59,526 nucleotides of DNA from Candidatus Gastranaerophilales bacterium (lineage in GTDB: Bacteria > Cyanobacteriota > Vampirovibrionia > Gastranaerophilales > Gastranaerophilaceae), in the NCBI GenBank assembly GCA_944323425.1, contig CALUSL010000011.1, positions 1-59,526 of the forward strand, given 5' to 3'. A model generated the notes under the pieces. It was given only the letters and a program-made list of their open reading frames with translations. It did no database searches and was not told the origin of the DNA. Shown here piece by piece: positions 22,545-47,300 of the stretch; the stretch's first letter is position 1, and each line of letters starts with the position of its first letter. The translations under genes and the position numbers were made by a program.

Positions 22545-24077
22545 CTACTTTTTAGGTTCGCCTTTTTTCTCTTCTTCGTGCATGTGTTCACAGTGGAGTG
22601 TTTCATGCAGTTTGTTCAATATATCTTTGTAATGATAATTCAAAGCGTGCTGTGTCTGGTGATGAAGGTCGTCCAGATGATAGTGCATTGCAATTTCCAG
22701 TTCGGCTAGAGCTATATTATACTTATACAGCGTATCAACGTAAAGTACCTTTGCGTCGTTAAAATTTGTTCTTGCCGTCATCAATGCAATATAGTCATTT
22801 TCGCCGGAGTCATATCTGTCATTTTCCATTTCATAGTTTTCAAAAGCCTCATCTGCTTTTCTTTTTGCAATAGGTATTTGATTCTCATGCTTTTTTACAT
22901 TGATATAGGATTTTTTTACATGAAAATACAGATTCTGTTTGAATTGAGCAATATCATTTGCTGCAAGGTCTACCTGTGCTTGAGCTCTGTCTATTTCGTG
23001 TTTTAGCTGTTTTATGTTCAATGTTGAAGTCATTCCGACCGACATATTTATGTTATTGTTTGCATAATCACGAGAATTGTTGAACCCGTATCCGACATTG
23101 CCAACGATATCCGGATAGTACTGTCTTTTTACATAAAGGAGTGACTGCTTCATTGCATCCAGAGTAGAATCAAGTACCCATATGTCAGGACTGTTCTTAT
23201 TTGCCAGTTCATATGATGCATCGAGGGTGAACGGCAGCTTTTTGAATGATGACTGTTCAAAGTTTTGTGATTGCTGATTGTTGTTAGTCGCATTAACAAA
23301 ATTTCCGCCTGTCTGATTTTTGGGAAATTCATCTAAATCATCCGGAATAAACGTATCTGCAAATCTGAAAGTATCTGTGTCTACAAGTTTAAACTCCGGA
23401 GCATAAGCAATATATAGAGAATTTGCAAGAACTGCCATTGCATTATCATAGTCATTTTCAGCATCTAACAGGCGCATCTTTGATTCTGTGTAAAAAACTT
23501 TTGCGTTTATATAGTCTATTTTCGGCTTTTTACCTGATTCATAAAGCTGTTTTGCACGCTGCAGGTTCTTTTCACAGATTCTTACGTAATTCTTTTGAAT
23601 TTCTACGATTGCTTCCGCACGCAGAGCTGCATAATATTTCGTTTTTACATCATAAATTGTAAAGCATATACTATCCATAAACTGATATTCTGCAGCAATT
23701 TCATAAAACTTTTCCATTTTTATGTAAGAGCTTGTCTTTCCAAAGTTCCATATAAGTTGTTCCAGCATAACAGAAACAGAGGGAAGATCTCTATTTGAAG
23801 AGCCGTTGTAGTTTTTGTTTGAGTTATAGTCCTGATAGATACCGGCATTAGCTCCAAGGGTCGGGAAAAATGCGGATTTTGCGATTCCTACATTGCTTTT
23901 AGCAACCTCCATATTGTATTCATAGCTTTTTATAATAGGACTATTGTTTATTGCCAGAGCAACACAGTCTTGAAGCGAAAGAGAATCTCCTGCTTTAAAA
24001 GGAAAATCCTGAATCGCAAAAACAGGCATTGCTGTCACCACGCATAATACAACGACTATATATCTTAAAAAACTCAA
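22545..24077 (-). CDS. TolC-family outer-membrane efflux protein with a His-rich tail
   Basis: Outer-membrane channel of a tripartite efflux or type I secretion system. The 510 residues comprise a signal peptide (YIVVVLCVVTAMPVFA), LQDCVALAINNSPIIKSYEY, and the two-fold repeated helical hairpins typical of TolC (for example TARTNFNDAKVLYVDTLYKYNIALAELE). The last ~47 residues contain ten His and one Cys, ending in EEEKKGEPKK. I read the start as TTG at 24077: AGGAAG stands at good spacing, and the only later Met is inside the signal peptide. It shares an operon with the DUF4145-like gene. No inner-membrane partner is nearby. Confidence 0.9.
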   Translation of the reverse strand: MSFLRYIVVVLCVVTAMPVFAIQDFPFKAGDSLSLQDCVALAINNSPIIKSYEYNMEVAKSNVGIAKSAFFPTLGANAGIYQDYNSNKNYNGSSNRDLPSVSVMLEQLIWNFGKTSSYIKMEKFYEIAAEYQFMDSICFTIYDVKTKYYAALRAEAIVEIQKNYVRICEKNLQRAKQLYESGKKPKIDYINAKVFYTESKMRLLDAENDYDNAMAVLANSLYIAYAPEFKLVDTDTFRFADTFIPDDLDEFPKNQTGGNFVNATNNNQQSQNFEQSSFKKLPFTLDASYELANKNSPDIWVLDSTLDAMKQSLLYVKRQYYPDIVGNVGYGFNNSRDYANNNINMSVGMTSTLNIKQLKHEIDRAQAQVDLAANDIAQFKQNLYFHVKKSYINVKKHENQIPIAKRKADEAFENYEMENDRYDSGENDYIALMTARTNFNDAKVLYVDTLYKYNIALAELEIAMHYHLDDLHHQTQHALNYHYKDILNKLHETLHCEHMHEEEKKGEPKK

Positions 24078-24193
24078 TCTAACTTCCTTTGTAAAAAGAC
24101 AAAAAGTATAATTATTCTTTAATTATAATTCAAATTATTAACTTATGTAAATCATTTAGATGATATTTCTAAAGTTTTTTATACAATGTGCCG

Positions 24194-24274
24194 ATTAATA
24201 TATTGTTAGACCAAAAGGTCCAACAAACCTCCTCCCCAAGTCTAGTAGCCGGCCTTTAAGGACGGCTTTTTTTT
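24194..24274 (+). ncRNA. Probable small RNA with a C-rich anti-Shine-Dalgarno loop
   Basis: Three parts in order: a hairpin TTGTT-A-GACC / AAAA / GGTC-C-AACAA (24203-24226), an unpaired C-rich stretch ACCTCCTCCCCAAG (24227-24240), and a terminator hairpin AGCCG...CGGCT (24247-24267) followed by eight T. TACAAT (24182-24187) could be the -10 box; the -35 is weak. The CCUCCUCCCC stretch is complementary to ribosome-binding sites, as in C-rich trans-acting sRNAs. The architecture recalls cyanobacterial Yfr1 (two hairpins around an unpaired UCCU core), but the core is not identical. It lies in the 365-base gap between the TolC-like gene and the LysM gene. Confidence 0.6.
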
Positions 24275-24442: not shown

Positions 24443-25699
24443 ATGGGAATTTACAGTATTAAAACGGGAGACAATTTATGGAATATTGTAAAAAAAGAAT
24501 TCAACCTAAAGAATTCTGACGATATTGCCAAAAAAGTTCAGGAAGTGGCAAGAAAAAATAATATAAAAAATCCTGATTCGATTTTTGCCGGGCAGAAAAT
24601 TTCATTGAATATTGAAACAGAAGGTACATCTGTAATTAAATCATCAAATGATATTGCACCATTAAAAGTTGAGCCGGTAAAGTTTGATTTAAGTGTTGAT
24701 AAATCGTTTCTGTCACTCGCATCTGAAAAGATAAATCCGCAAAAAATAAATATAAATAGAGAATTTGTTCAGACTGATCCCAGAGTACACGGTCCTAATC
24801 CGGGAATGGATAGCTATGTTCCGTCAGCTGATGTAGAGGCTGCAAAAACAGAAGTTAATGATGATGATGTAAAAATAAAAAGATATTCTGCTTCGAATCC
24901 AAGTTTTTTAGCTTTAAAATTTAATAAATATCAAGAGGCAGCCAAAAGAATTCAAGAAGCTATCAAGCAGAATGAACAGGAGTTAAAACTCTCAGAAGAA
25001 AGTCCTGCTCTTGATTTGGATAAAGTAAGAACAGTTCTTGATGAAATAGAGCTTCCGGCTTATGAAGGCAAGGCTGATAAGGCTAAAAATGGAGAGGTTG
25101 TGGTTTCTTCGCCGAAACCGGTTACAGAAACTAATACAGAACCCGAAGTAAAAGTCAGAAAGGTCAAAGGTGCTGAAATTACTTCACCTGTAAAGGTTAC
25201 AAATAAAGCAAAATCAAAACCTCGTATTTCTTCGCGCAAGTCGAAATTACATAATATTGATGTAACGCAAAAATATACAGGAACGGCAGAACAGCTGAAT
25301 TTACACTTAAAAGGCGTTTTGAAAGGTACAGGTTCAACACTGCTCAGATTGCAAGAAAAATATGGAATAAGCGCTGCATTTCTTGCTGCAATTGCTATTA
25401 ATGAATCAGCAAATGGTTCCAGTTACAGTGCGAGAAAAAGAAATAATGTCGGCGGTGTAAGAAAAGCAGGCAGTACGAAATTTAAAGTTTACAAAAGTGT
25501 TGATGACTGTCTTGAAGATATGGCAAAATTCCTGAAAAAGAATTACATAGATCAAGGACGTACAACAGTTGGCAGAGTCGGCGCAAAATATTGTCCGACC
25601 AGTGACCATACAGATACTCAGGGAATTAACCAGTTCTGGCCAAGGAATGTAGGTACTTATATGGCACAAATAGACCCATCAGTCAAAGATCAGGTATAA
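24443..25699 (+). CDS. LysM and glucosaminidase-domain protein, peptidoglycan hydrolase
   Basis: A 418-residue protein. Residues 3-53 form a LysM peptidoglycan-binding domain (YSIKTGDNLWNIVKKEF ... PDSIFAGQKISL). A charged, Pro-containing linker follows. Residues ~275-400 look like a glucosaminidase domain related to FlgJ and autolysins, with LQEKYGISAAFLAAIAINESANGSS carrying the presumed catalytic Glu and RKRNNVGGVRKAG. No Sec signal peptide is present, because LysM starts at the second residue. Export must be by another route (for example a flagellar-type or lysis-dependent one), or the gene derives from a phage. GAGGA precedes the ATG. Confidence 0.82.
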   Translation: MGIYSIKTGDNLWNIVKKEFNLKNSDDIAKKVQEVARKNNIKNPDSIFAGQKISLNIETEGTSVIKSSNDIAPLKVEPVKFDLSVDKSFLSLASEKINPQKININREFVQTDPRVHGPNPGMDSYVPSADVEAAKTEVNDDDVKIKRYSASNPSFLALKFNKYQEAAKRIQEAIKQNEQELKLSEESPALDLDKVRTVLDEIELPAYEGKADKAKNGEVVVSSPKPVTETNTEPEVKVRKVKGAEITSPVKVTNKAKSKPRISSRKSKLHNIDVTQKYTGTAEQLNLHLKGVLKGTGSTLLRLQEKYGISAAFLAAIAINESANGSSYSARKRNNVGGVRKAGSTKFKVYKSVDDCLEDMAKFLKKNYIDQGRTTVGRVGAKYCPTSDHTDTQGINQFWPRNVGTYMAQIDPSVKDQV

Positions 25700-31957: not shown

Positions 31958-34900
31958 TTACACAATAGGATTAAAACCAGGATTATTCTGATTGATAATT
32001 ATTCTGGTCAGAGATTCATTGTATTGTTTATTTAATTTTGTTATAAGACTGTTAATTTCAGAGTATTGTTCCTGCAGTCTTGTCAGAAAATCCATAAGTT
32101 CTTTCTGGCTTTGGGCTAGAGCTTCATCGCCTCCGTAGAGCGACAACTCGCTTTCCAACCTCGAAAGCTCACCTTTGTTCAGGGTCATTTCTTTTTGCAG
32201 CGCATTTCTCTGGCTGGTCAGTGTTCTTATTGTTGAATTGAAATAGCCGCTTACCGGTTTGAGTGAATCATCTATTGTGTCTTTGACTCTTGTAAATGAA
32301 CCGGCTACAGTGTGATCAATCGGATCTCCCGTGTCATCACCTATAAGCAATTCTGAAACATTCTGAGGATTGGATAAAAATGCATTGTAGAATTCATCAC
32401 GGTTTAGAGTAAGTGATACTTTTCCTGCTGTGGAGGTAGCAGAGCCGCTAATATTTACAATAATTCCGATATCTGCGAGTTCCTGCTGAATATCAGTTCT
32501 GTTTCCTATATCATCAGTCAGTGCGTCTCTGATACGACCGAGAAGTGCTGAAAACTCTGCATCGTCTGCAACGTTTGTAGACTGGGACAGTGTCATTGCA
32601 ACATTGAACTTGCCTACAAAATCTACCAGCTTCTGATATGTTTCGTCCAGAGTCAGGCTGCCGATATTTATGGTGCCTGCGCCGGTTTCTTTAATGGTAA
32701 TTGTTATTGCCGTGTCAGCATCATTTGTCGTGATTTTTCCGTCTTTGTCCAGCTTGATGACATTTGACTCTGTTTCGTAGTCTGTGCCGTTAAGGTTAAA
32801 TACCGCATTGTATCCATTTTGTTGGGTTGCAACATTCATTGCATTTCCGTTCGTGAATCCCACTATATCCGTAAGATTTGAGGAACCGGCTTCTATTTCT
32901 ATGCGGGCGTTCGTTTTTTGGGCATTGGACGTAAGGACTATTCTGTTGTCAACAAAATCTGCATGTACACCATTTTCGTCAGTGGAAAGGAATGCGCCGT
33001 TTATTTTGTTAATAAGGTCTGCAATGGTGTCTGTTTCTGAAACGTTTATTACAGTGTTGTTGATTTTAAAGTTACCGGCTGTCACACCAAGCGTGCTGAG
33101 CAAAACATTTTCATTGCTGACCTGCAGTCTGTCGCTTTTAATAACTGTGCTTGTCGCATTTGTTCCGTTTTCTATCTGTGCTGTAGAAGATAATGTACCG
33201 CCGGAGGTAAACCCGATTTTGTTGGTAAAATCGCTTGTGCCTTTTGTTACTACAATACCTCCGTCTGTTTCTGAGGAATTTCTTGTCAATACCATTTTGC
33301 CTGTTGTTGCATCGATTGAGGCTGTAATTCCTATGCCAGAAGCATTTATTGCAGCGGCAATTTCTTGAACAGTGTCCGTTGACTGTATTTCTATTCTTCT
33401 TGTGTCTGTGATGTTTCCGTTTTTATCAGTCAGTGAGATATAGAAGTTGCCTGAGGTGTATCCAAGTAATGACGCATTCTCTGCAGTTTTTGAGGATGTA
33501 AGAGTTGAAAGTGTTCCGTTTTCAGCTGGTTTTATCTGCGTACCGTTCTGCGTAAAGCCGGTTGCCTCCGCAAAATTCGATGTACCGTCTTTTAGGGATA
33601 TTTGGTACGCACCTGCAAGTTTTGAGGTCAGAACCAGATTTGTGTTATAAGGGTCTATCTGTGCTGTAATACCCAGATCTGAATTCGTAATTTGTCCGGC
33701 TATTTCAGCAAGCGTTTCATTTCCCGTCAGTGTAAATGTTCTCGTAATTGTAGTTCCATCCGGATTAGTAACAGTTATTTCAAAATCTCCGGCGCTGAAT
33801 TTCATTCCGCTGTCAATACCGGTTCTGGTACCGGAAAGGGTTGAGTAAATATCCTGTTTACCTGTGACGCCGGTTGCTGTGCCTCCTATTGTGCCGGCAG
33901 TAAGTCCGAGTATGCGCGCGTAATCTGTGTCTCCGTCATCAATGCGGATTGTTGCGCCGTTTTCTATTGTCGTTGTAATTTCAATTTGACCGGAACTGTT
34001 AAGGGAAGCCCTAAAGTCACTCTGTGTGCTTGTGTTAATAAAATCAAGAACGTCCTGAATTGTTGTTACGCCTTTTTCTACGCTAACATTGAGTGTTCTG
34101 TGTCCTGCTGCGGAAATTGTGAATGAGCCTGAGGTCATATTATTGAAGCTCTGGGTAGCACTCAATCCGCTGACAGAACCGGTTATTTTGGACAATCCGT
34201 ATGAACCGTTGTCTGTAACGCCGGTTGATGACCAGCTTTCTCCGACAAGACCTGTCAGTTTGTAAAAATCTGATGTACCTGATACTCTTAGCTCAGAACT
34301 GTTTTGACCGGTTGTCTTTATATATAGGGCGCCGTTTTCATCAAGTCCTGCTTCAAAATTTCCGTTTTGCGAAATTTTGTCAATAACATCCTGAATTCTG
34401 TCGTTTGCTGAGATATTTATTGTTTCTGTGGTTGAACCTGCGGTTAAAACCAGTGTGCCTGCCTGCATTCCGCCGAAAACATGATTAGCATCAAGGTTTT
34501 TCATGGAACCGGTAATCATTGATTTTCCGGAAGTTAGGTCTGTTGTCGAAAAATCGGCATCCGTGGTTGCGCCTGTCGTGGACATACCTGCCATTGTGAC
34601 AAAACCGGAAGAGTCGTTCTGGAACGTAATCTCTGACGCATATTCTCCGTTTAACTGGATATGTATACGACCTTTGCCTGTTGTGTCATCAACATCTACT
34701 TTGAATATCATTTTGCTTGTATCAAGACGGTTTGAGCCTGTGACATCGCTTGCCTGATACTGGGCTTCTCTGTCAATGATAGCCTGTTTCATCTTGTTCA
34801 AAATAGTATCAACGCTATCGCTTGAAGAAACGTTTATCGTATATGAACGCTCCGGTCTGTAAATTATATCGCCGTTTGGCGTGGTTGTCATTGTTTCACC

Positions 34901-37900
34901 CAGCGTGAATGTGAACGAGCCGTTTCTGAGTCCGGTGAATACCGTCGAACCTTTCATGCCGTCAATACCAGTTCCGCCCGAACCGCCTGCACCATAGAAC
35001 TCGAACAGTCCGTGGTCGCCGACCTCTGTCTGTGTAGAGGAACCTTCTGTCGTAGTTGCACCGACGAGTCCTACTCGTTTTGTAAAATCAGATTCAGAAA
35101 CTATTATGTTGCTTGTTGACTGGCTGTTTGCCTGAATATAGAATCTGCCTTCACTGTCTATGCTGGCGGTATATCTTCCGCCTGATTGGATATTTATATT
35201 ATTGATAATTTCGTTCAGCGTTTGTCCGTTTGAAACAGAAATAGTAACAGTATTAGAACCGTCACTTATTGTGAAAGTGGAGGATGTTAGGCCGCCGAGA
35301 ATGTGTTCACCGTGAAGACCTGAGACAGAACCCGTAAATTTCAGGTATCCGTGGCTTTCTTCTGTAAATGTTCCCATATGTGTCGTTGTTTCATCGGCAG
35401 TTGCCAGACCGAGACGTTTTACAAGCTCTGTTCCGCGTGCGTCAAGACCTGTAAATGTAATCTGTTCTGCTTTGTTTCCCGCAATACTTATTTTGAACTG
35501 ATGAGTTGAATTGTCAAAACTAATATTGAAACCTTCTACGCCCGCGTTGACCGCAGCGGTTTTTATTGCGTTGACAATGTCGTTTACTGTCATGTTTCTG
35601 TCTATTGAAACATCGAATGATGTTGTGCCAACGTTGATTGTATTATTTGTTTTGTCACTTAGTGTAACTCTGAAAGAGCCGTCGCCTGTGCCTGCTATTG
35701 AATCATCTATTGTCAGGTTGGAAGAACCGAGAAGCCCTCCGACAGCGGCGCTTGTGTATTCCATTGTTCCGTAAGAACCGAGTGTAAGCGTTCCCTCGCC
35801 GAGTTCTTCTGTTTCTCCGGAAAGTCCGAGAATTCTTGCAAAGTTTGATTCGGATACGGTTACGGCAGTCGATGAATCTGTCAACGATTTTATCCAGAAT
35901 CTGCCGTCTTCGATTCCTGCATCATATTCACCGGTGTCTTTGATTTTCTGGATTATTGAATCAAGGCTCTCATCATCTGATACAGTGATGTTGACCGAAG
36001 CACCGCCGCCGCTGATTGTTACTGTTTCTTCGGCAGCGTTAAGACCGCCCTGTATATTGCCAAGAATGTGGCTCGAGTGGAGGTTCTCCGTAGAACCCTT
36101 GAGTTTTGAATGTCCTTCGGAGAGTTTTGTGTTTGTGTAATTTGCGTCATAGACCTTGTCATCCTGTGCAAGACCTACTCTCTGGATAAATCCGGATGTA
36201 TCATCGGTAAAGGAAAGTTCGTATAACGCATTATCTGTTGCCGTTATGCTGATTCTGTTGTTTCTGCTGTCAAATACGGCATTAATGCTGGGGTTGAGTG
36301 CATTAATTCTGTCCAGCACCATTTGGACGGTGTCACCCTGATGAACTTCTATCCATTTTGCTCCGTCCGTGGTGTTTATATTGAACCCGCCGTCGGTAAT
36401 TCCTGAAAGAACGGTATTTGCGGTCAATCCGTTGATAGAGCTGCCGTTAAATGTGAATGTTCCATGAGAACCTGTTTCTTCATAGAGTTTTACATAATAA
36501 TCTGTTCCGTTGTTCGTGATACCCGGTTCTGTCGGTACACCCGGCGAGACCGGAGGAGTATAGCCTTCAGGCTCTGTTGCGATACCTGTCAGGGTTGCAA
36601 AATTTCCGGAAAGGTCTGTAATAACAAGTTTGTCTTCCGTTCTTGATTCAACTGCAGACGTGATGACTATGTGTCCATCAGCATCAAGCCTGTATGTCAA
36701 TCTGTCATTTGCGAGCGGTGACATGTTTAAATCCGGTGTATCCGTGTTGAAATCAAACAAACCAGTGCCGTCTTTTCTGTTTGCCAACTCAACAAGCCTG
36801 TTCAATATGGTCTCTACACTTTCGTTGCTGTTATAGTGGACATCAATGCTTTTACCGTTTATGGACACTCTGAAAGTGCCGCCCTGAAGGCTGCCGACTA
36901 CGCTTGTGTCTTTGTATCCGCCGTTTGCACTGGTGACAGTACTTTGTCCGACTTCATCCGGCATTGGTCTTTCCATTGTTCCGGTGAAGGAGGTGTCATT
37001 CCAGGTCATTGAAGAATCAGTAAGTCCGTAATACTGGGCAAATCCGCTTGTGTCTTGGATTCTTACCGCACCAAGCTGTCCGCCGTATGTAATCTGAATT
37101 TTTCCATCAGCGGTGAAAGATGCTGTATATCCGTTGATTTTATTGATTTCAACGCCGTCCGGTGTAATAATGTCCTTTGCAATCATGTCATTTATCTTTT
37201 TCATGACTTGATCGAGACTGTCGGTGGCAAGTATTTCTACGTTACCTACTGCAACATAACCGTCTGCTGTTTGTGTAACGAAGGTCAGCATACCGTCTTT
37301 TTGACCGCTGAATGGTCCTATATTTGTCTTGCCTACGGCAAGCGTTCCGTCTGTTATCATACCGTTTACGCTTACAGAACCTGTTATGCTGCCGTTGTTG
37401 TATATATATACGTCTTTTGGACTGTCTATTTCTTCATTTGTCGAACGCTGTTCCAGCTCGGTTGCATTTGAGCCGAGTCCATAGAAGTATACGAATGCAC
37501 TGCTGCCGCTTATTCTAAAGTCATCCATGCCCGCACCGTAGGTAATTTCAATTTTGTCATTTACGATTTGTGCGGAAATTGTTGTATCCCAGTTGACATT
37601 GGAAACATCTGTCGGCGGTGCATAATTGACGGTCATGTGATTGATTTTATCAAGAACTGTCAGCAGGTCGTCATTTGCATCGACTGTTACAGAACCGATT
37701 TTTGTGCTGCCGTTGTAAAAATCAATTGTGCCGGTTTGTCCGAAGATTTCATTTCCGTTGACCTGTGAAATGTCGGTTGCTCCTGTTAGAACACCGTTTC
37801 TGTCATAGGTTACAATGTCTTTGGACGGAGTAATAGAGCTGTCGTAGTCTTGATATTGAGAAGTTCCTGAGCCGGTAAGTCCGTAATATCCTGCAAATGC

Positions 37901-40900
37901 ACTGTCTCCGCCAACTGAAAAATCGGATATTGCGCCGGAATAATTTATTTTTATTCTGCCGTTTGAATCTATAACCGCGTTAAGCTTGTAATTAAGATTG
38001 TCGCTCGGCATATCATCAGGGGCGCTGAAGGTTAGGGTTGTACTGTTGATTTTGTTCAACACTGTTTGCAGGTCGTCTCCCGCATCAACTTTCACAAAGC
38101 CTATTTTTTCGGAACCCGAATAGAACTCTATGAATCCTGCCTGATTCGCGATAGCCTGACCGTTTGAGTCATAGACATTTACGGAGCCTGTAAGTGTTCC
38201 GTCCGTGTATACATATCTGTTGTTAACTATTGAAACACTACCCGGCGTGTTAGTTGCTGAACCGACCGTGTAGTTTCCGAATCCGGTAAGTCTTGCTGCG
38301 TCACCGGTCGCGTCGATGGTATGATTGTTTCCGTATGTTTTTATGCTGATTTTTCCGGTCGTTGCGTCAAAGCTTATTTCAGGTTTGCTGATTACATAGC
38401 CGTCTTTTGAAAACTCTTCTCCGTAAGCGTCTGCCTGTGTCTGCAGTTCAGAAACGACTTCGGCAAGAGTTTTTCCCTGTGTGTTTACGGATATTGTTCG
38501 TGTTCCGTTCGAGCCGTTTTCAAATGATATGCTTATTGTTCCGCTTGCAAAGGTTGTGTCGGCAGTGAGTTTGTTTTTGTTACTGCTGAGGTATTCAAAC
38601 GTGCCGTTTTCAACAGTTGTCGTAGGTTTTGAATTTGTTGCAATACCGGATGTGTATCTTGAAAATCCGGTAACTCTGGCAAAATCACCCTCTGCAGTTA
38701 TTGAATGGTTTGTGTAGTTTGTTTTTATAACAATCTGCTCGTTGACATATTCCGCATAAACATAGTTTTTACTGTATCCGTCTACGCTGTCTACGCTCTG
38801 ACCTGACTGTCCTATTGCGTTGATTTCTGCAACTACTTCTTCTACGGTCATTCCTGTTGTGTCAATAGTGAAGGATTCGTTTTGTCCGTAACCGTTGTCG
38901 TGAGTGATAGTTATGCTGCCGCCGACAAATGTCGTGTCTTTTTTCAGCCCCATCTCGCTTTTTGTCTGGAATGAGTGTGTTCCGTCAGATACTGTGTAAG
39001 AACCATCAACGTAAGTCGCAGATCCTACTGAATATGAAGCAAAGCCTGTAACTCTTGCAAAATCTCCGGAAGCCTGAATGTTGTACGGATTGTCTACAGA
39101 GCTTTCGAGCATTTTAATTCTGAAATAACCTGTTTCAAGATCTGCGGTTACTCCTGCAAGTCCGAGATTGTTTACTTCATTAACAATCTGTTCAAGCGTT
39201 TTGTTTGCGGTATTGATTGTTTTGTCGCCAATTTGGAGCGTGCCGCCCAGTATTTTTATGTCTCCGGTTACTTCATTGCCGCCAGATATGGTCGGATGTA
39301 ATTCATAAGTGGAGTTTCCTCCTGTTACTGTTCCAAAATCAAGAGAATAATTTGCAATACCTGTTATTCTCGCAAAGTCACTGTCCTCAACTGAAATAGA
39401 TATCTGGTCCGGTCCAAACGAGGTGGATTTTATGGTGAAGCGACCCGTTGATGGGTCTATATATGCTTCGAGTTCCAGTCCGAGTTCATGAGCTCTTGCT
39501 GTAATCTGTTCTGCTACATTTTGTACGGTTCCTGTTATATCAACATCAAAAGTCGTTGTTACTGCATTGTTCCAGCTGTGAACATCGTTCACCAGAGTGA
39601 CCGTGACTTTTCCGTCCGTAACTTGTTCGGTTCCTTTTAGATTATCAACTACGCCGGATATATAGGAATTTGTTTGTCCCGTTGTAGTTCCTGTGTTGTC
39701 GTCACCGTATGCAATATATGCGCTCAGTCCAGTTACAGCGCCGAAGTCTCCGGTACCGGATACGGAGAATGAAATTGTGTCAAACTCGTTTTCAGTGTTT
39801 GCGTTTGTCTGTTCAAGTACAAACCTTCCGTCGGCATCCAAATATGCTCTGATTTGTGTTGTCGCTGTTTCTGCATTTATAGCATTGATTGCGTCTTCGA
39901 TTGTTCCAGATAGAGTGATTGTTTTTACTGATGATACGGCGTTGTTTGTTCCGCCTTCTGTGTTCGAGCCGGTTGAGGTAGAGGTAATAATGCCCTGAAG
40001 AGTCAGCTGGACTGTTCCTGTTAGCTGGGAGTCGTATTTAAGTCCCGTTACTCCTCCGGTAACTTTTGCTGCCTGCTTTTCGGTGACAGTGTATGAGCCG
40101 TCTGTCGTAGTGTGAGAGCCTATACCGATTACACGTCCGAAGTCACTGTTCGTCATATCTACAGAGATGTTGTAATCACCTGCTAAATCTGATTTGAACT
40201 CAAATTTGCCGTCTTTAATTGAGGCTGTAACAGAAATACCGGCAGCCGCAAGCTGCTGGTTAATAGATGTGATTGCGTCCGCAAGTGTTCCGTCTGCAAC
40301 GTGAATGTCAATAGACATATTTATGCCGGCTGAATTCAGAGCATTTGCTTTGGAAATACTAAATTTGAATGTACTTTCAAGAACTTCGTTAACGGCATCA
40401 ACGTCTCTTGAACCGGTCAGAGAACTGTACGACTGACCAACAACATTTCCAGTGTCAGCCTGTCCTATTGTTGTATAGTCTCCAAATCCTGCTACACGGG
40501 CAAAATCTCCATCTCCGGAAACTTCGAAATTGATTGTATCTCCTTCACCGGCAGTGTTTGCATCGGTCTGTCTCAAAACAAACTGTCCGTTTTCAAGCGA
40601 AGCTTCGATTTTCGTGATATGCTTCAGGTCGTTAATACTGTCTATTGCGTCCTGTATTGAGATGTATCCGTTTCCGTCTTTGTCTGTAAATGTAATTGTT
40701 TGTGCGACGGAAGCAAGAGCGCCTGAACCCTGTTCTGTGTCTACGCCGGTATAGGACTTGCTTCTTGTCATCCACAATTTTATGGTATTTGTTCCGATAA
40801 GTTCGTCGTAGGAGTTTAGTCCGCTTGTTGCACCTACATATTGTGCGGGGTCTTTTCTCAGGTGAGACATGCTTCCGTCCATTGTCGTGCTGCTTGCCAT

Positions 40901-43900
40901 TCCGACAACACGTCCAAAGTCGCCTGTTACTCCGTTTACTTTGTCCACACTGAGACTAATCCTGAACGGACCGGCATCTCTTGACACGAACTGGAGTTTG
41001 TTATTTACGATTTCAGCTTTTACATACCAGTTTGCGCTGTTTATCGTATTCATTGCGTCTTCAAGTGTTCCGTCTTTCAGGAGGAATGTTTTTTCAACAT
41101 TTACTCCAACGTCATTCACAAAACCGATAGTAATTTGAGATTCTGTTATTTCTGTTTCTTTGTCGACATTGTTCTGACCGACAAGTTTACTGTATGTGTA
41201 ATTTGTGTGTTCTCCGTTTGATGGGGCTGCACCTACTGTATATGACCCCAGTCCTGTGACACGCCCGAAGTCTCCGACACCTATTACCTTAAATGAAATG
41301 CTCTGCATTGTGTCGCTTGTCGCTCTGAGAACAAACTGACCGTTATCATTTAGCAGTGCCTCTACGCCGGTTATGTCTTTATTGGTGTTAATTGCGAGCA
41401 ATGCTGCTCCGACACTGGCGCCGAGGTCTATTATTGTGGAACCGAACTGTATTTTTGAACCGGCGAGTACCTGTGAGTATTCATCAAGACCGGTGACAGC
41501 ACCTGTGACTGTTGCATGTTCTTTTTCCACGTGTGATGTTGAACCAGAAACAGTTGTGTATGTTCCTGTTCCGACAATTCTGCCAAAATCGCCTGATTTT
41601 ACGGAGAAACTTATGCCTGCAGAGCCTGCGTTTGTATTTCTGAGTACAAATTTCCCGTTTCCGTCAATAAATGCCTCAACTCCTGTCGTAGCAGAGTTTG
41701 CGTTTATTGTAGCTATTGCGGATGATATTGTGCCGCTGAGAGTGATGTCTTTGCCGTTTATATTGACAACACTGTCCAATATCTGATCAGAATTGCTGAC
41801 TGTTTTTGTTGCCGTAAATGTCGTTTTAGAGCTGCCGTACTTCTCCTCATGACCTGCAGACACCTGATAACCGATTATACCTGTCAATTGTCCGAAGTTT
41901 CCTGAAATATCACGTACGGAAATAGGGAGAGAACCGTTTCTCATTTCTGTGAATACGAGTCTGTTGTTTTCAATTGATGCTGTAATCTGAGTTATATCAG
42001 ACATTGCATTTATTTGCTGGATTGCACTCTGAAGTGTTCCCGCTTTTATATCGACGATAGTTCCGTTAATGTTTATGGAAGAGTCTTCTATCATTGTATT
42101 GTTGTTAACATCTTCAGAACCTGTCAGGGTTGTTTTGGAACCCTGCTGTCCGATAGTTGCTGCTGCTGAAGCTGAACTTTCTGTTGTGAATCCGGCAATT
42201 GTGCCGAAATTGCTTGTGCCGCCTTCAACAAACAGTCCCTGGCTTCCTGTCATTTTGTTTCTTAGTACGACATGTCCGTTCTCTGCGTCAAATTCTGCAA
42301 TAACTCCTGTCTGGTTCGTATATTCATTGATTTTTTTAATGGCAGCAGCAAGTGTTCCTGCGTTTAGTTCTATAGTAGTATCGTTGATTTTAAAGGAGCC
42401 TGCGGTTACCTGAACATTGCTCGGATTTACGATATTTCTTATACCGGTTAATGTCGTGAAATACTGTGCGTCCAAATCTGGATTTAGCACTCCTGTTGAG
42501 GTCATCCCGTCAGTGAGACCGACTTTCTGAGTAAAATCTGAATTTCCTGATTCTACTGTTATGCTGTAGCCGGCACCTTTTACATTATTTTTAATAACGA
42601 ATCTGTCATTTTCAACAGATGCTGTTATATCAAGTCCGGATGCATTAATTTTTGCAATTACGTCCTCCAGTGTATCTGTAGCAGCTACATTAATAACTTC
42701 CTGAGCTGTAACGCCGTTTAGTGTTTTTCTTATAACAAAAGAACCTTCCTGAAAACCTCCTGTCATAGCAGCAATGGAATTGCTTCCGGTAAGGGTTTGG
42801 ACAGAACCGTCAGAACCAAGGACAAGATTGTCCTCAATCATTTTTCCGCCTGTAGTAAATCCGATGACATTCGTAAAATTACTGGAACCTTTTTCTATCT
42901 CAATAAGAACATTTCCGGTTCTGTTAGCAACAAGAGTGATTTTGTTTTCATCTAAAATTGCGCCTACGCCGTATTTCTGGTCTCCGTTAATTTCGTTGAA
43001 CAGGTCGTTTATCGTAGTGTTTGAATCAATCGTGAGTTCGTTACCGTTTATGGAAAAAGTACCGGTGGATATTGTTAAGCCTATTTTTTCACCGAAATTT
43101 GAGCTCTGGTCGTGCATGTTCATAGATTTTACGCCTTTTGAATCTATGTATAGCTGACCGTTCTCTATGCCTGCTCCGTATCCGTCTGCTTGAAGCGCTC
43201 TTATTACATCGCCCAGAGTATTGTTGCTGTTTACTGAAATAGTAGAATTGCCGATGTTAAACACACCGCTTTTTATGCCCAATTCTGACATCGTCATTGA
43301 TTCATCGAGGTCATTGCGTGTGGTTGTTACCCTTGTACCGCTGTAGCTGCCGGCATACAAATCAGTGATTTTTGTGCTTAGGCTGATATTTTCACCTTTC
43401 AGTACGTCGCTTATTGCTTTTGTCGCTGTGGCAACCTGTGTAACTTTGTAATCAATGCGCTGGGTTGTGACGTTATTGTTGTTCAGAACAACATCGACAA
43501 CATCCGGATTTGTGTTCGTAAAGTCAAGAACACTCGAGGTTGTGGTAGAGTCTTTAACGCTTTTCAAAAAATCATCAAGAGACGTTACCGTCTTTGAATA
43601 CTGGTTTTTTAGCGAATTTAGTGTCGTAATCTTTGAGTTATGGGTATTTATCTGTGAACTTATTGTATTTATTGAGGACTGTAAACCTATAATCTGGCTG
43701 TTATAGTAACTGTTTAGCTGATATATCTGGGAGTTTGTCGTGTAAGCGCCTGAGGCAACCTGATTGAACATTTGTTCAATTGCACTTTTTTGCTGGTATA
43801 AGCTGCTTAAAGACTGCTGCTTTTGGCTCAAGACGTTGTTAATCATTGAGCTGATGGATGAATTTCTTGAGGTCGTAAGTCCGTTGATTATAATACTCAT
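31958..43900 (-). CDS. Giant FliD-like protein (3,980 aa) with about 29 hook_IN-type repeats
   Basis: FliD-type ends enclose a huge repeat array. The N-terminus (IIINGLTTSRNSSISSMINNVL, then RIDYKVTQVATATKAIS) resembles FliD_N. The last ~270 residues resemble FliD_C: QELADIGIIVNI, AFLSNPQNVSELLIG, then a helical coil ending NKLNKQYNESLTRI. Between them about 29 units of 65-130 residues each carry a 'DTIxDxIxxINxxxxGVxAxxxNxRxVLxS' strand-helix-strand pattern closing in DF-x-R-V-x-G-F/L, as in flagellin hook_IN motifs. An EF-hand loop lies at residues 1073-1084. There is no Sec signal; FliD is exported by the flagellar apparatus, which is not in this window. GGAGG (43905-43909) precedes the ATG. 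Paralogue of 44347-53385. Adhesin, cap or fibre role inferred. Confidence 0.85.
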   Translation of the reverse strand: MSIIINGLTTSRNSSISSMINNVLSQKQQSLSSLYQQKSAIEQMFNQVASGAYTTNSQIYQLNSYYNSQIIGLQSSINTISSQINTHNSKITTLNSLKNQYSKTVTSLDDFLKSVKDSTTTSSVLDFTNTNPDVVDVVLNNNNVTTQRIDYKVTQVATATKAISDVLKGENISLSTKITDLYAGSYSGTRVTTTRNDLDESMTMSELGIKSGVFNIGNSTISVNSNNTLGDVIRALQADGYGAGIENGQLYIDSKGVKSMNMHDQSSNFGEKIGLTISTGTFSINGNELTIDSNTTINDLFNEINGDQKYGVGAILDENKITLVANRTGNVLIEIEKGSSNFTNVIGFTTGGKMIEDNLVLGSDGSVQTLTGSNSIAAMTGGFQEGSFVIRKTLNGVTAQEVINVAATDTLEDVIAKINASGLDITASVENDRFVIKNNVKGAGYSITVESGNSDFTQKVGLTDGMTSTGVLNPDLDAQYFTTLTGIRNIVNPSNVQVTAGSFKINDTTIELNAGTLAAAIKKINEYTNQTGVIAEFDAENGHVVLRNKMTGSQGLFVEGGTSNFGTIAGFTTESSASAAATIGQQGSKTTLTGSEDVNNNTMIEDSSININGTIVDIKAGTLQSAIQQINAMSDITQITASIENNRLVFTEMRNGSLPISVRDISGNFGQLTGIIGYQVSAGHEEKYGSSKTTFTATKTVSNSDQILDSVVNINGKDITLSGTISSAIATINANSATTGVEAFIDGNGKFVLRNTNAGSAGISFSVKSGDFGRIVGTGTYTTVSGSTSHVEKEHATVTGAVTGLDEYSQVLAGSKIQFGSTIIDLGASVGAALLAINTNKDITGVEALLNDNGQFVLRATSDTMQSISFKVIGVGDFGRVTGLGSYTVGAAPSNGEHTNYTYSKLVGQNNVDKETEITESQITIGFVNDVGVNVEKTFLLKDGTLEDAMNTINSANWYVKAEIVNNKLQFVSRDAGPFRISLSVDKVNGVTGDFGRVVGMASSTTMDGSMSHLRKDPAQYVGATSGLNSYDELIGTNTIKLWMTRSKSYTGVDTEQGSGALASVAQTITFTDKDGNGYISIQDAIDSINDLKHITKIEASLENGQFVLRQTDANTAGEGDTINFEVSGDGDFARVAGFGDYTTIGQADTGNVVGQSYSSLTGSRDVDAVNEVLESTFKFSISKANALNSAGINMSIDIHVADGTLADAITSINQQLAAAGISVTASIKDGKFEFKSDLAGDYNISVDMTNSDFGRVIGIGSHTTTDGSYTVTEKQAAKVTGGVTGLKYDSQLTGTVQLTLQGIITSTSTGSNTEGGTNNAVSSVKTITLSGTIEDAINAINAETATTQIRAYLDADGRFVLEQTNANTENEFDTISFSVSGTGDFGAVTGLSAYIAYGDDNTGTTTGQTNSYISGVVDNLKGTEQVTDGKVTVTLVNDVHSWNNAVTTTFDVDITGTVQNVAEQITARAHELGLELEAYIDPSTGRFTIKSTSFGPDQISISVEDSDFARITGIANYSLDFGTVTGGNSTYELHPTISGGNEVTGDIKILGGTLQIGDKTINTANKTLEQIVNEVNNLGLAGVTADLETGYFRIKMLESSVDNPYNIQASGDFARVTGFASYSVGSATYVDGSYTVSDGTHSFQTKSEMGLKKDTTFVGGSITITHDNGYGQNESFTIDTTGMTVEEVVAEINAIGQSGQSVDSVDGYSKNYVYAEYVNEQIVIKTNYTNHSITAEGDFARVTGFSRYTSGIATNSKPTTTVENGTFEYLSSNKNKLTADTTFASGTISISFENGSNGTRTISVNTQGKTLAEVVSELQTQADAYGEEFSKDGYVISKPEISFDATTGKISIKTYGNNHTIDATGDAARLTGFGNYTVGSATNTPGSVSIVNNRYVYTDGTLTGSVNVYDSNGQAIANQAGFIEFYSGSEKIGFVKVDAGDDLQTVLNKINSTTLTFSAPDDMPSDNLNYKLNAVIDSNGRIKINYSGAISDFSVGGDSAFAGYYGLTGSGTSQYQDYDSSITPSKDIVTYDRNGVLTGATDISQVNGNEIFGQTGTIDFYNGSTKIGSVTVDANDDLLTVLDKINHMTVNYAPPTDVSNVNWDTTISAQIVNDKIEITYGAGMDDFRISGSSAFVYFYGLGSNATELEQRSTNEEIDSPKDVYIYNNGSITGSVSVNGMITDGTLAVGKTNIGPFSGQKDGMLTFVTQTADGYVAVGNVEILATDSLDQVMKKINDMIAKDIITPDGVEINKINGYTASFTADGKIQITYGGQLGAVRIQDTSGFAQYYGLTDSSMTWNDTSFTGTMERPMPDEVGQSTVTSANGGYKDTSVVGSLQGGTFRVSINGKSIDVHYNSNESVETILNRLVELANRKDGTGLFDFNTDTPDLNMSPLANDRLTYRLDADGHIVITSAVESRTEDKLVITDLSGNFATLTGIATEPEGYTPPVSPGVPTEPGITNNGTDYYVKLYEETGSHGTFTFNGSSINGLTANTVLSGITDGGFNINTTDGAKWIEVHQGDTVQMVLDRINALNPSINAVFDSRNNRISITATDNALYELSFTDDTSGFIQRVGLAQDDKVYDANYTNTKLSEGHSKLKGSTENLHSSHILGNIQGGLNAAEETVTISGGGASVNITVSDDESLDSIIQKIKDTGEYDAGIEDGRFWIKSLTDSSTAVTVSESNFARILGLSGETEELGEGTLTLGSYGTMEYTSAAVGGLLGSSNLTIDDSIAGTGDGSFRVTLSDKTNNTINVGTTSFDVSIDRNMTVNDIVNAIKTAAVNAGVEGFNISFDNSTHQFKISIAGNKAEQITFTGLDARGTELVKRLGLATADETTTHMGTFTEESHGYLKFTGSVSGLHGEHILGGLTSSTFTISDGSNTVTISVSNGQTLNEIINNINIQSGGRYTASIDSEGRFYIQANSQSTSNIIVSESDFTKRVGLVGATTTEGSSTQTEVGDHGLFEFYGAGGSGGTGIDGMKGSTVFTGLRNGSFTFTLGETMTTTPNGDIIYRPERSYTINVSSSDSVDTILNKMKQAIIDREAQYQASDVTGSNRLDTSKMIFKVDVDDTTGKGRIHIQLNGEYASEITFQNDSSGFVTMAGMSTTGATTDADFSTTDLTSGKSMITGSMKNLDANHVFGGMQAGTLVLTAGSTTETINISANDRIQDVIDKISQNGNFEAGLDENGALYIKTTGQNSSELRVSGTSDFYKLTGLVGESWSSTGVTDNGSYGLSKITGSVSGLSATQSFNNMTSGSFTISAAGHRTLNVSVEKGVTTIQDVLDFINTSTQSDFRASLNSSGQIEITTTIENGATIRIDDGDTDYARILGLTAGTIGGTATGVTGKQDIYSTLSGTRTGIDSGMKFSAGDFEITVTNPDGTTITRTFTLTGNETLAEIAGQITNSDLGITAQIDPYNTNLVLTSKLAGAYQISLKDGTSNFAEATGFTQNGTQIKPAENGTLSTLTSSKTAENASLLGYTSGNFYISLTDKNGNITDTRRIEIQSTDTVQEIAAAINASGIGITASIDATTGKMVLTRNSSETDGGIVVTKGTSDFTNKIGFTSGGTLSSTAQIENGTNATSTVIKSDRLQVSNENVLLSTLGVTAGNFKINNTVINVSETDTIADLINKINGAFLSTDENGVHADFVDNRIVLTSNAQKTNARIEIEAGSSNLTDIVGFTNGNAMNVATQQNGYNAVFNLNGTDYETESNVIKLDKDGKITTNDADTAITITIKETGAGTINIGSLTLDETYQKLVDFVGKFNVAMTLSQSTNVADDAEFSALLGRIRDALTDDIGNRTDIQQELADIGIIVNISGSATSTAGKVSLTLNRDEFYNAFLSNPQNVSELLIGDDTGDPIDHTVAGSFTRVKDTIDDSLKPVSGYFNSTIRTLTSQRNALQKEMTLNKGELSRLESELSLYGGDEALAQSQKELMDFLTRLQEQYSEINSLITKLNKQYNESLTRIIINQNNPGFNPIV

Positions 43901-44272: not shown

Positions 44273-44356
44273 ATGAAAAAATGTGTAGTCGAACAATGGC
44301 ATATTGAAAAATATAGCCTCTTGCTTGTGGTGAGAGGAGCTTTGGCATGGATATAA
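44273..44356 (+). CDS. Possible 27-aa leader peptide overlapping the start of the 3,012-aa gene
   Basis: ATG with AAGGAT seven bases upstream, encoding MKKCVVEQWHIEKYSLLLVV and seven more residues. Its TAA (44354-44356) lies just inside the giant ORF, whose ATG is at 44347, a 10-base overlap in another frame. A ribosome translating it would run through and open the hairpin at 44315-44341 that covers the giant's ribosome-binding site. Coupled translation is inferred; no homologue is known to me. Confidence 0.45.
   Translation: MKKCVVEQWHIEKYSLLLVVRGALAWI
44315..44341 (+). promoter_or_regulatory. Hairpin masking the ribosome-binding site of the 3,012-aa gene
   Basis: AGC-CTCT (44315-44321) can pair with AGAG-GA-GCT (44333-44341), leaving a two-base bulge. 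The right arm contains the ribosome-binding site (AGAGGAG), a few bases before the ATG at 44347. The other giant has a different structure with a similar effect (43953-43971). Confidence 0.45.
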
Positions 44357-47300
44357 GTATTTACACAAACGGCCTTTCCTCTCGAAATGCTTCAATTTCA
44401 TCACTTGTTAATAATGTACTTGCAAACAAACAGAAAAGCGCAGGTTCTCTTGGTGGTGCATCATCACTCGGCACAGGGGGAGAGGGTAATGCTTATTCAA
44501 ATCAGATTAACAGCTCGTACGTAGAATATTTGAACAGTCTTCAGCAGACGATTGACAATTTAAACAGCAGCTCGACATCGATTACAAACAAACTTTCGAC
44601 ACTTTCAACAGTAAAAAGTTCTTACAATCGTACTGTTTCATCGCTCGATGATTTTATAAACAGTGTAAAAAACTCCAGTGCGTCATCTATTCTCGATATT
44701 TTCAACACAAACAGCTCGGCAGTGGACGGAGAACTTATCAGCAGCAATGTTGATTCACAACGTATTGAGTATAGCGTAAAACAGGTCGCTACTGCAACTC
44801 AGGCTATCAGTAGCGCGCTAAAAGGCGTAAGTATTGATGGAGAAACGAAAATAGTTGATCTTTTTGCCGGAAGCTTTGATGGTAAAAGGCTTACATCTAC
44901 ACGTTCTGACCTGACAGGTTCAATGACAATGAGCCGTCTTGGCGTGACTACCGGGACTTTTGAACTCGGCGGGAACCTTATTTCGATTAAAGGTTCCGAC
45001 ACAATCGATGACGTTATTGAAAAACTTCGGGTAAACGGTTACAAAGCGGGTTTTGATGCTTACAACAACTTCTATATTGAATCAGAATCCGGAAATTCTA
45101 TGAAAATCACCAATCAAAACACAAACTTCGGTGAAATCATGGGGCTTACGATGTCCGAAGGCTCTTTTTCCATAAACGGACAGGAATTGTATATAAACAA
45201 AGATACTACTCTCAATAGCTTGCTTTCTACGATAAATTCCGATTCAAAATACGGGGTTGGTGCAATGCTAAAGGACAACAAAATTACTTTTGTTGCAAAC
45301 CGTACAGGAAATGTTCTTATTGAAATCAAAAAAGGTACAAGCAATTTCACCAATGCAATAGGGTTTACGCAGGGCGGAAGCATGAATACTGGCAGCCTGG
45401 TTCTCGGCAATGACGGTACAGCTCAGAAACTTTCCGGTATTACCGCTATAAATGCTGACTCTACCGGCTATACAACAGGTACATTTAAAATCACCACTTC
45501 ATATAACGGCAATGAACAGTCTGCTATCATCACTATAGACGAAGATGACGGAATAAATGACATCATAAATAAAATAAACAACTCGAACATCGGTATTTCC
45601 GCAACAATTGAAAACGGCGTTTTTGAACTTGTTCAAAACAACAAGGGCTCAGGTTATAATATAACTGTTGAGGCAGGAACAAGCGACTTTACCGAATTTG
45701 TCGGATTGACGGAAGGCACGCAATCTACCGGTATTCTTTCTCCCGGACTGGACGGGGATTATTTTACCCACACAACAGGCACAAAGGAGATTACAGATAT
45801 CGATGCGCCGGATGTGGTCACTGCCGGTTCATTTAAAATCAACGGCAAAACTATTCAGCTAAAAGGCGGAAGCATTAGTGATGCGCTTGCCGAAATTAAT
45901 CAGTACAGCGAAGAACTGGGCATTGTTGCTGAATACAAAGACAATCATATTACAATCAGAAACAGGCTTACCGGCTCAACCGCACTTTATATAGAAGGCG
46001 GTACAAGCAACTTCGGTGTTGTAACCGGCTTGACAACAGAAAGTGTATCATCATCGAATTTTGTTGCTGGTGCAGAAGGCTCGGCATCGACTTTAACAGG
46101 TACTGAAATTGTGAGCACAAACACTGAGGTCGGTGTATCTACTATTAAAATCAACGGAATTACCGTAAACATTGCAGAAGGCACACTAGAAAGTGCAATA
46201 AAAAATATAAACGCTGTTTCTGACAAGACTTATGTTGAAGCGTCAATTGATGAGAACGGAAAACTCGTTCTGACAGAAACCCGTCACGGCTCTCTGCCGA
46301 TTTCTGTTCAGGATGTAAACGGAAACTTTGGTCAAATCACCGGTATAATCGGATATCAGGTTGTTGCAGGTGAAGAAGAAAAATACGGCGATACAAAAAC
46401 TATACTGACTACAGCAAACTCTGTTTCATACGGAACTCAGATTATGAACAGTACAGTTGTTGTAAATGGCTTAACAATAGCCGTTGGAACGAATATTTCA
46501 GAAGCTTTGAATGCAATCAACGCTCATTCCTCGGCAACCGGTGTTGAAGCATTTTTGAACGATGAGGGCAGATTCGTACTGCGAAATATCGATAGCGGTA
46601 TAAAAAATATTTCATTCCAGATAACCTCCGGTGATTTAGGCAGGGTCATAGGCGCCGGAACTTACACAACAATAGATGGCACAAACTCGCATGTAGAAAT
46701 TGAATACGCAAGTGTAACAGGCGGGGTAACGGGTCTTGACGACTATTCTCAGGTTTTGAAAGGCTCAACACTCACTATCGGCAGTGTGACAATGGATATG
46801 GGTGAAACAATACTTGATTGTATTAATATAATTAATTCCCATAAAGATGAGACAAAAGTTGAGGCAAAACTTACTTCAACAGGACAGTTCCAACTTGTTG
46901 CCATAGATGATAGCATAGAAAACATTTCTTTTATTATCGGCGGTGAAGGTGACTTTGGCAGGGCAACCGGTCTCGGCAGCTATGTTATTCAGGGCAATGC
47001 TCCTGACGGCACTGAACAGCCTATTACTTCTACCGGGCTTGTAACCCCTACACGACAGATGAGAACATACAGCGTTCAATCTACGGGCGGCACAACCTCT
47101 GACGGTGAAAACATAGGTCAGACCTTCTCGAAGTTGACAGGTACAAACAATGTCACTAACACAACCCAGATACTCGAAAGTATTATAACTATTTATTATA
47201 AAAACGATGCCGGTGTTGATACCTCAAAAACTTATACCCTGAAAGCCGGTACACTCCAGTCCGCAATGGACACAATCAATAACTCGAACTGGTATGTAAA

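Follow-up and report, generated by a model that had tools for sequence, protein, structure and literature searches.

The locus and the predicted RNA

The window, by which we mean the whole stretch of 59,526 nucleotides that was analysed, corresponds to contig C11 in a genome of 2.03 Mb and 47 contigs. Its host belongs to the Gastranaerophilales, non-photosynthetic relatives of cyanobacteria from gut and groundwater, within the non-photosynthetic class Vampirovibrionia. The RNA gene lies outside two flanking protein genes. On one side is a divergent gene for an outer membrane efflux protein of the OEP/TolC type (22545–24077, minus strand; Pfam PF02321, E 1.9e-57), and on the other a gene for a LysM and glucosaminidase protein (24443–25699, plus strand; PF01476 and PF01832), which the RNA precedes by 168 nt in the same direction. 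Elsewhere the window contains two giant divergent genes (31958–43900 and 44347–53385) with products of 3980 and 3012 aa.

All elements of the RNA gene are located on the plus strand. The promoter, recognized from the letters and a promoter matrix, is composed of a -35-like element TAAAGTTT (24170–24177) and, after a spacer of 12 nt, a -10-like element GCCGATTA (24190–24197). Five nucleotides behind the latter begins the 24-nt 5′ hairpin TTGTTAGACCAAAAGGTCCAACAA (24203–24226), which is seen in the fold and in the folding and pairing of the homologs. It is followed by an open linker of 20 nt (24227–24246; ACCUCCUCCCCAAGUCUAGU as RNA, ACCTCCTCCCCAAGTCTAGT as DNA) that contains ACCUCCU and is near-invariant in alignment A1, described below. 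The 3′ part consists of an intrinsic terminator stem of 21 nt, AGCCG-G-CCUUUAAGG-A-CGGCU (24247–24267), whose five outer pairs are present in 21 of 21 sequences of the sub-alignment A2, and a tract of seven T (24268–24274), where the predicted RNA ends. Judged from the promoter position, the 5′ end is predicted at about 24202–24204, giving an RNA with a predicted length of about 72 nt (24203–24274).

The MFE fold of 24194–24274 (-19.2 kcal/mol, z -2.32; 5 of 200 shuffles fold equally well) has exactly the layout of 5′ hairpin, open C-rich linker and terminator. Both fold and letters thus bear out the earlier note, which had placed a hairpin, a C-rich linker and a terminator here. A terminator scan returned 0 terminators and missed that of the RNA, which folding does show, probably because the stem is interrupted. 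The linker reads ACCTCCTCCCC in the window, where this string is present in one copy. Rfam gave no match in the window at the family cut-offs; at E up to 10 the best sub-threshold match was Aggregatibacter sRNA, with an E value of 0.24 that is at chance level.

Conservation within the genus and family

The RNA is conserved far beyond chance. With a 101-nt query, BLASTN located it in all four genus genomes, and with an 89-nt query in 171 of 191 genomes of the family, representing 39 of 41 genera. For alignment, 53 loci were picked and 48 retained in A1, leaving out L051, whose core was not matched by the core expression, and the near duplicates L016, L023, L026 and L032. The covariance model R1, built from these 48 sequences, was applied to 386 phylum genomes and found matches in 192 of them at E 0.01; by a count of the result rows, 167 of the 170 genomes from the family reach E 1e-10 or better. 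Three family genomes that are 97–99% complete (G114, G151 and G185) gave weak R1 matches, and inspection of these showed the RNA to be absent.

The linker occurs in only seven variants among the 48 sequences, 43 of which contain ACCTCCTCCCCAAGTCT, three ATCTCCTCCCC and two a longer CCTCCCTCCCC form. In genus g41 (L064 and L072) the core reads CCTCCCTCCCCAAAGTC, with two bases inserted, and in genus g18 (L051) it is shortened to AATCCTCCCCAAGTC. The letters of the 5′ hairpin differ widely among the homologs. When compared with dinucleotide shuffles, the 5′ region folds better in all 48 (mean z -4.9, weakest -1.4). The hairpins and the C-rich core, on whose conservation in relatives the earlier note had made its reading depend, are both retained.

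Pairing in the 5′ stem was assessed in A2, which comprises 21 of the 48 sequences picked for one stem type, so that its pair counts are biased to that stem. A2 shows pairing in 94.9% of its 5′ stem cells and changes on both sides of three pairs, where shuffled alignments give a mean of 0.8 and 6 of 500 reach 3. The terminator stem is nearly invariant in A2 and carries little covariation information. In the MFE fold, 32 of the 48 sequences leave the core open, and the other 16 close part of it by short local pairing. RNAalifold did not recover the 5′ hairpin from A1, since MAFFT misaligns the variable stem; per-sequence folding and A2 were used instead, and R1 consequently holds terminator pairs only.

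In a comparison of neighbours at 76 loci, made on proteins without Pfam names, none was common to more than 9 of the loci. The neighbours differ from genus to genus, and the OEP neighbour is common to same-genus loci only. This lack of conserved neighbours favours action in trans. Taken together with the RNA's own promoter and own terminator, it suggests a free-standing gene whose product would act in trans.

Homologs in other families of the class

When 84,980 species genomes were scanned for the core, at least 116 stretches came up. The organism names among the matches listed are Gastranaerophilales, Melainabacteria, Adamsella or cyanobacterium, and the records of Candidatus Gastranaerophilales among them agree with the case considered in the earlier note, that the host is a relative of cyanobacteria. 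The exceptions are one Clostridia and one Brachyspira, which are probably misnamed bins.

Within the class, 382 genomes were scanned for CCTCCTCCCCAA, and the pattern matches and R1 matches were then inspected. Homologs with core and terminator are present in families f2 (2 of 2 genomes), f3 (2 of 2), f44 (1 of 1), f5 (8 of 10) and f49 (2 of 4), and nearly all of them have a clear 5′ hairpin. Altogether, six families of the class hold homologs sharing AACCUCCUCCCCAA. The 14-nt core is constant across them, all 15 aligned sequences, drawn from the six families, having an identical AACCTCCTCCCCAA. The terminator stem of the f5 and f49 homologs is unrelated in sequence, being mostly GCTACCG...CGGTAGC, and R1 scores them at 17–27 bits. 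A core that stays invariant while the hairpins change across families is the pattern to expect of a core that does the work.

Two f3 genomes possess a second copy with the same promoter, core and terminator and no 5′ hairpin (L385, G406:C2:425061-425146; L386, G415:C1:782423-782508); the core of these copies is ACCTCCTCCCC, and the promoter is of the sigma-28 type. Near one f5 homolog, a lysine riboswitch (RF00168, 73.5 bits) is located at L308 1771–1984 (G453). Core-pattern matches in f4, f6, f43 and f45, second matches in f5 and f49 genomes, and the matches in G471 and G486 were inspected and found to be non-homologous. Weak R1 matches in 18 oxygenic cyanobacteria (E 3e-4 to 9e-3) correspond to terminators or unrelated sequence lacking the CTCCTC core.

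A sigma-28-type promoter

The conserved promoter upstream of the RNA, TAAAGTTT-N12-GCCGATTA, is by its sequence of the sigma-28 (FliA) type. The same motif is seen in a published list of sites for E. coli FliA, for example at tar with TAAAGTTTCCCCCCTCCTTGCCGATAAC, which has the form TAAAGTTT-N11-GCCGATAA (PMC4183435). The earlier note had described a -10-like box upstream of the RNA; a box is indeed present at 24190–24197 and is better read as sigma-28 type. An alternative sigma-70-like pair, ATGATA-16-TACAAT (24160–24187), is weak, and sigma-70-like pairs in the region are at chance level (3 found against a shuffle mean of 3.7).

The bare pattern TAAAG...GCCGA occurs 26 times in the genome of the host against 30 times for the reversed control. 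Because it is not enriched genome-wide, the case for the promoter rests on its place and its conservation. In the same genome, nine such places precede, by 30–74 nt, a start codon that has a ribosome-binding site, and a promoter matrix was trained on these nine protein-coding promoters with the RNA excluded. With this matrix, the region preceding the RNA outscores at least 95 of 100 shuffles for 38 of the 48 homologs of the family and for 14 of the 15 distant ones; in the remaining 10 and 1, respectively, the score is weak or unclear. The nine genes include one for a GAF-HD_5 protein, which has the fold of c-di-GMP hydrolases, and several for proteins of unknown family. A pair of similar proteins without a known family (MNMVEFYRKMD...), encoded at L206 1557–3023 (C5) and L208 1556–3025 (C6), both have sigma-28-type promoters, which are also found before several other unknown small proteins of this genome.

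The genome of the host encodes the matching sigma factor, a FliA/WhiG protein at 234 bits, above the curated cut-off. The fliA gene (L316 9688–10512, contig C7) is located between dapB and proC, and no flagellar genes were found among the ten neighbours scanned. Across the class, FliA scores above the cut-off in 65 of 74 genomes tested. The nine genomes without it comprise four incomplete family genomes, one genome of f47 and four of f45. These four are all the f45 genomes tested, from the family whose core matches are also non-homologous. G114, G151 and G185 have FliA over the cut-off and yet lack the RNA, so the presence of FliA is no guarantee of the RNA. Co-occurrence of the two inside the family is uninformative, FliA being near-universal there.

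Comparison with Yfr1

Yfr1 is defined by two stem-loops with 16–20 unpaired nucleotides between them, the 3′ one being a terminator (PMC2190773). The RNA described here has 20 nt between its stems, and its 3′ stem is a terminator. Like Yfr1 (RF01116), it is a stand-alone gene with a 5′ hairpin, an open C-rich core and a terminator. Its predicted length of 72 nt compares with 54–69 nt for Yfr1, which is an abundant transcript. The sigma-28-type promoter is a feature described for the present RNA. By analogy, an RNA built like Yfr1 may also work like Yfr1.

This likeness raises the possibility that the RNA is a diverged ortholog of Yfr1, inherited from an ancestor that Cyanobacteriia share with the non-photosynthetic class. 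The shared layout (PMC2190773) speaks for such descent, as do the CUCCUC string common to both RNAs, the membership of both in one phylum, and the near-universal occurrence of each in its own group. However, the Yfr1 model RF01116 has no match in the window, either at the gathering threshold or with E values up to 10, and none at E up to 10 on 12 loci with homologs from the other families. As a positive control, the same model detected Yfr1 in 7 of 20 loci scanned, all seven from oxygenic cyanobacteria, and R1 in turn gave no match on the Yfr1 loci. The ultraconserved undecanucleotide of Yfr1, ACUCCUCACAC, is absent from the linker, which has ACCUCCUCCCC in its place. All 12 oxygenic genomes tested contain an exact ACTCCTCACAC, as do 7 of 36 genomes of the class. 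Each of the seven class copies fetched lies outside the layout of the RNA, and the single exact copy in the genome of the host is likewise elsewhere and not in this layout. The guaB/trxA setting of Yfr1 is also missing, the RNA being flanked in the window by the OEP and LysM proteins. The layout, moreover, is simple enough to have arisen twice. Membership in Yfr1 is not supported, and we regard common descent as unlikely. Of the earlier proposal of a Yfr1 counterpart, the Yfr1-like layout stands, and descent finds no support from the models, the motif or the neighbours.

Comparison with other small RNAs

Anti-Shine-Dalgarno motifs are known from other bacteria. In alphaproteobacterial RNAs CCUCCUCCC has been given this name, and pairing with ribosome-binding sites and a block of ribosome entry have been proposed for the RNAs carrying it (PMC3927594). 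The Cuckoo/CcsR-type RNAs and SmelA075/SmelA099 have the identical CCUCCUCCC, which is contained here in ACCTCCTCCCC. In those RNAs the motif is placed in hairpin loops and usually repeated, SmelA075/SmelA099 having three or four copies each (PMC3927594), whereas the present RNA carries it once, in its open linker. Processing from a transcript that also includes a DUF1127 gene gives rise to the CcsR RNAs (PMC10253847); the RNA here, in contrast, is a separate gene flanked in the window by OEP and LysM/glucosaminidase genes.

Control by FliA is described for UhpU, MotR, FliX and FlgO of E. coli and for CJnc170 (FlmR) of Campylobacter jejuni (PMC10578931, PMC11187230). With these sigma-28-dependent flagellar sRNAs the present RNA would share FliA control, as predicted from the promoter directly upstream. 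The E. coli sigma-28 sRNAs are derived from UTRs, whereas this RNA is intergenic, has its own terminator and is family-wide; no sequence relation is claimed. A further cyanobacterial RNA, Yfr10 (RF02362), carries the Yfr1 motif in a loop (PMC6778093), so that motifs of this kind occur in several RNAs per genome. RF02362 has no match in the window at its cut-off or at E up to 10.

Candidate targets

The linker contains ACCUCCU, the anti-Shine-Dalgarno string of the 16S tail, and then runs on into CCCCAAGUC. When 29 starts in the window were ranked by simple duplex energy, the gene for the 3012-aa protein came first (-19.4 kcal/mol) and that for the 3980-aa protein fifth, which makes the giant genes, already named in the earlier note, possible targets in this model. 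The pattern GGGGAGG-N4-11-ATG is found at 3 places in the genome of the host and at 36 in 11 genomes, hardly above the reversed control. Since GGGGAGG is rare near start codons, no target class is visible from the core alone.

Retrieval of 30 of the 36 places gave 12 downstream ORFs of at least 60 aa. Two of them are flagellar, a gene for an FlgG-type rod protein in G008 and fliR in G009; an AraC regulator gene of the host genome is also among the 12. The probability of at least two flagellar genes among 12 is 0.02–0.05, uncorrected and at a rate of 2–3% flagellar genes that was assumed post hoc. The FlgG-type gene and fliR have the lowest duplex energies in their flagellar clusters, both having been preselected by the pattern. 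Flagellar genes as targets are a lead only. The FlgF–FlgL cluster L387 showed no sigma-28 motif in the form that was looked for.

Proposed mode of action and alternatives

The sequence at 24203–24274 is very probably a small RNA gene standing on its own. We consider it likely, from the features of its sequence, that this RNA is driven by sigma-28 and acts in trans as an antisense RNA, blocking the start of translation. RNA polymerase carrying sigma-28, the sigma factor of the FliA type, would start the RNA at about 24203, the 5′ hairpin would protect its start, and the terminator hairpin would end the transcript, with the open linker ACCUCCUCCCCAAGUCUAGU offered for pairing. The linker would mimic the anti-Shine-Dalgarno tail of 16S, extended by CCCCAAGUC. 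Given this mimicry and its extension, the linker would most likely bind a limited set of mRNAs at their G-rich ribosome-binding sites. The paired sites would be kept free of ribosomes, and the sigma-28 programme (cell surface, motility and c-di-GMP) would thereby be tied to translational repression of chosen mRNAs. The RNA is best called a putative anti-Shine-Dalgarno antisense RNA under a sigma-28-type promoter, and its proposed mechanism is well motivated.

The invariance of the whole linker, AAGUC included, could also reflect a protein-binding site, or a sponge site for a G-rich partner RNA such as Yfr2 is for Yfr1, instead of pairing with mRNAs. Crosstalk between Yfr1 and Yfr2 provides a precedent for a sponge (PMC6778093), but the search with the GGGGAGG pattern found no partner, and we hold this explanation to be quite unlikely. 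A broader effect is conceivable as well, in which an abundant anti-Shine-Dalgarno decoy competes with the 30S at most ribosome-binding sites and brakes translation in general. The core does hold the anti-Shine-Dalgarno ACCUCCU, the duplex energies partly track Shine-Dalgarno strength, and one homolog locus has a weak, sub-threshold match to Rfam Betaproteobacteria_toxic_sRNA (E 0.52). That match, however, scores 20.7 bits against a cut-off of 50, and the invariant part extends into CCCCAAGUC, which a general brake does not need; we therefore find such a brake distinctly improbable. Finally, a cis-acting leader, an attenuator or the 3′ end of a neighbouring gene, as the LysM gene 168 nt downstream in the same direction might suggest, is extremely improbable for an RNA with its own promoter and terminator and with no neighbour in more than 9 of 76 loci, and the cis leader was rejected on these unshared neighbours.

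Significance

No description of this RNA in Gastranaerophilales or the class was found in the literature searched or in Rfam 15, as far as these sources were covered. The small RNA is very probably real, occurs in six families of the class and is apparently undescribed. The preferred reading as a sigma-28-driven antisense RNA can be widened, speculatively and with low expectation, to an RNA that serves sigma-28, in the non-photosynthetic class, as its conserved arm in translation. It would then be an ancestral switch that lowers flagellar basal-body and surface mRNAs and has been kept with the sigma factor in flagella-less gut lineages, possibly sharing descent with Yfr1. If this were true, Yfr1 would be a rewired survivor of the same sigma-28/anti-Shine-Dalgarno switch in photosynthetic cyanobacteria.

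Complete flagellar sets are reported in only 3 of 9 Gastranaerophilales genomes (PMC4040986), whereas FliA and the RNA are near-universal in the family genomes tested. This disparity makes it a testable question whether sigma-28 has a job after the loss of flagella. A single-copy RNA with a 14-nt core constant across families and a readable promoter for a named sigma factor offers a direct handle on gene control in bacteria for which genetics hardly exist.
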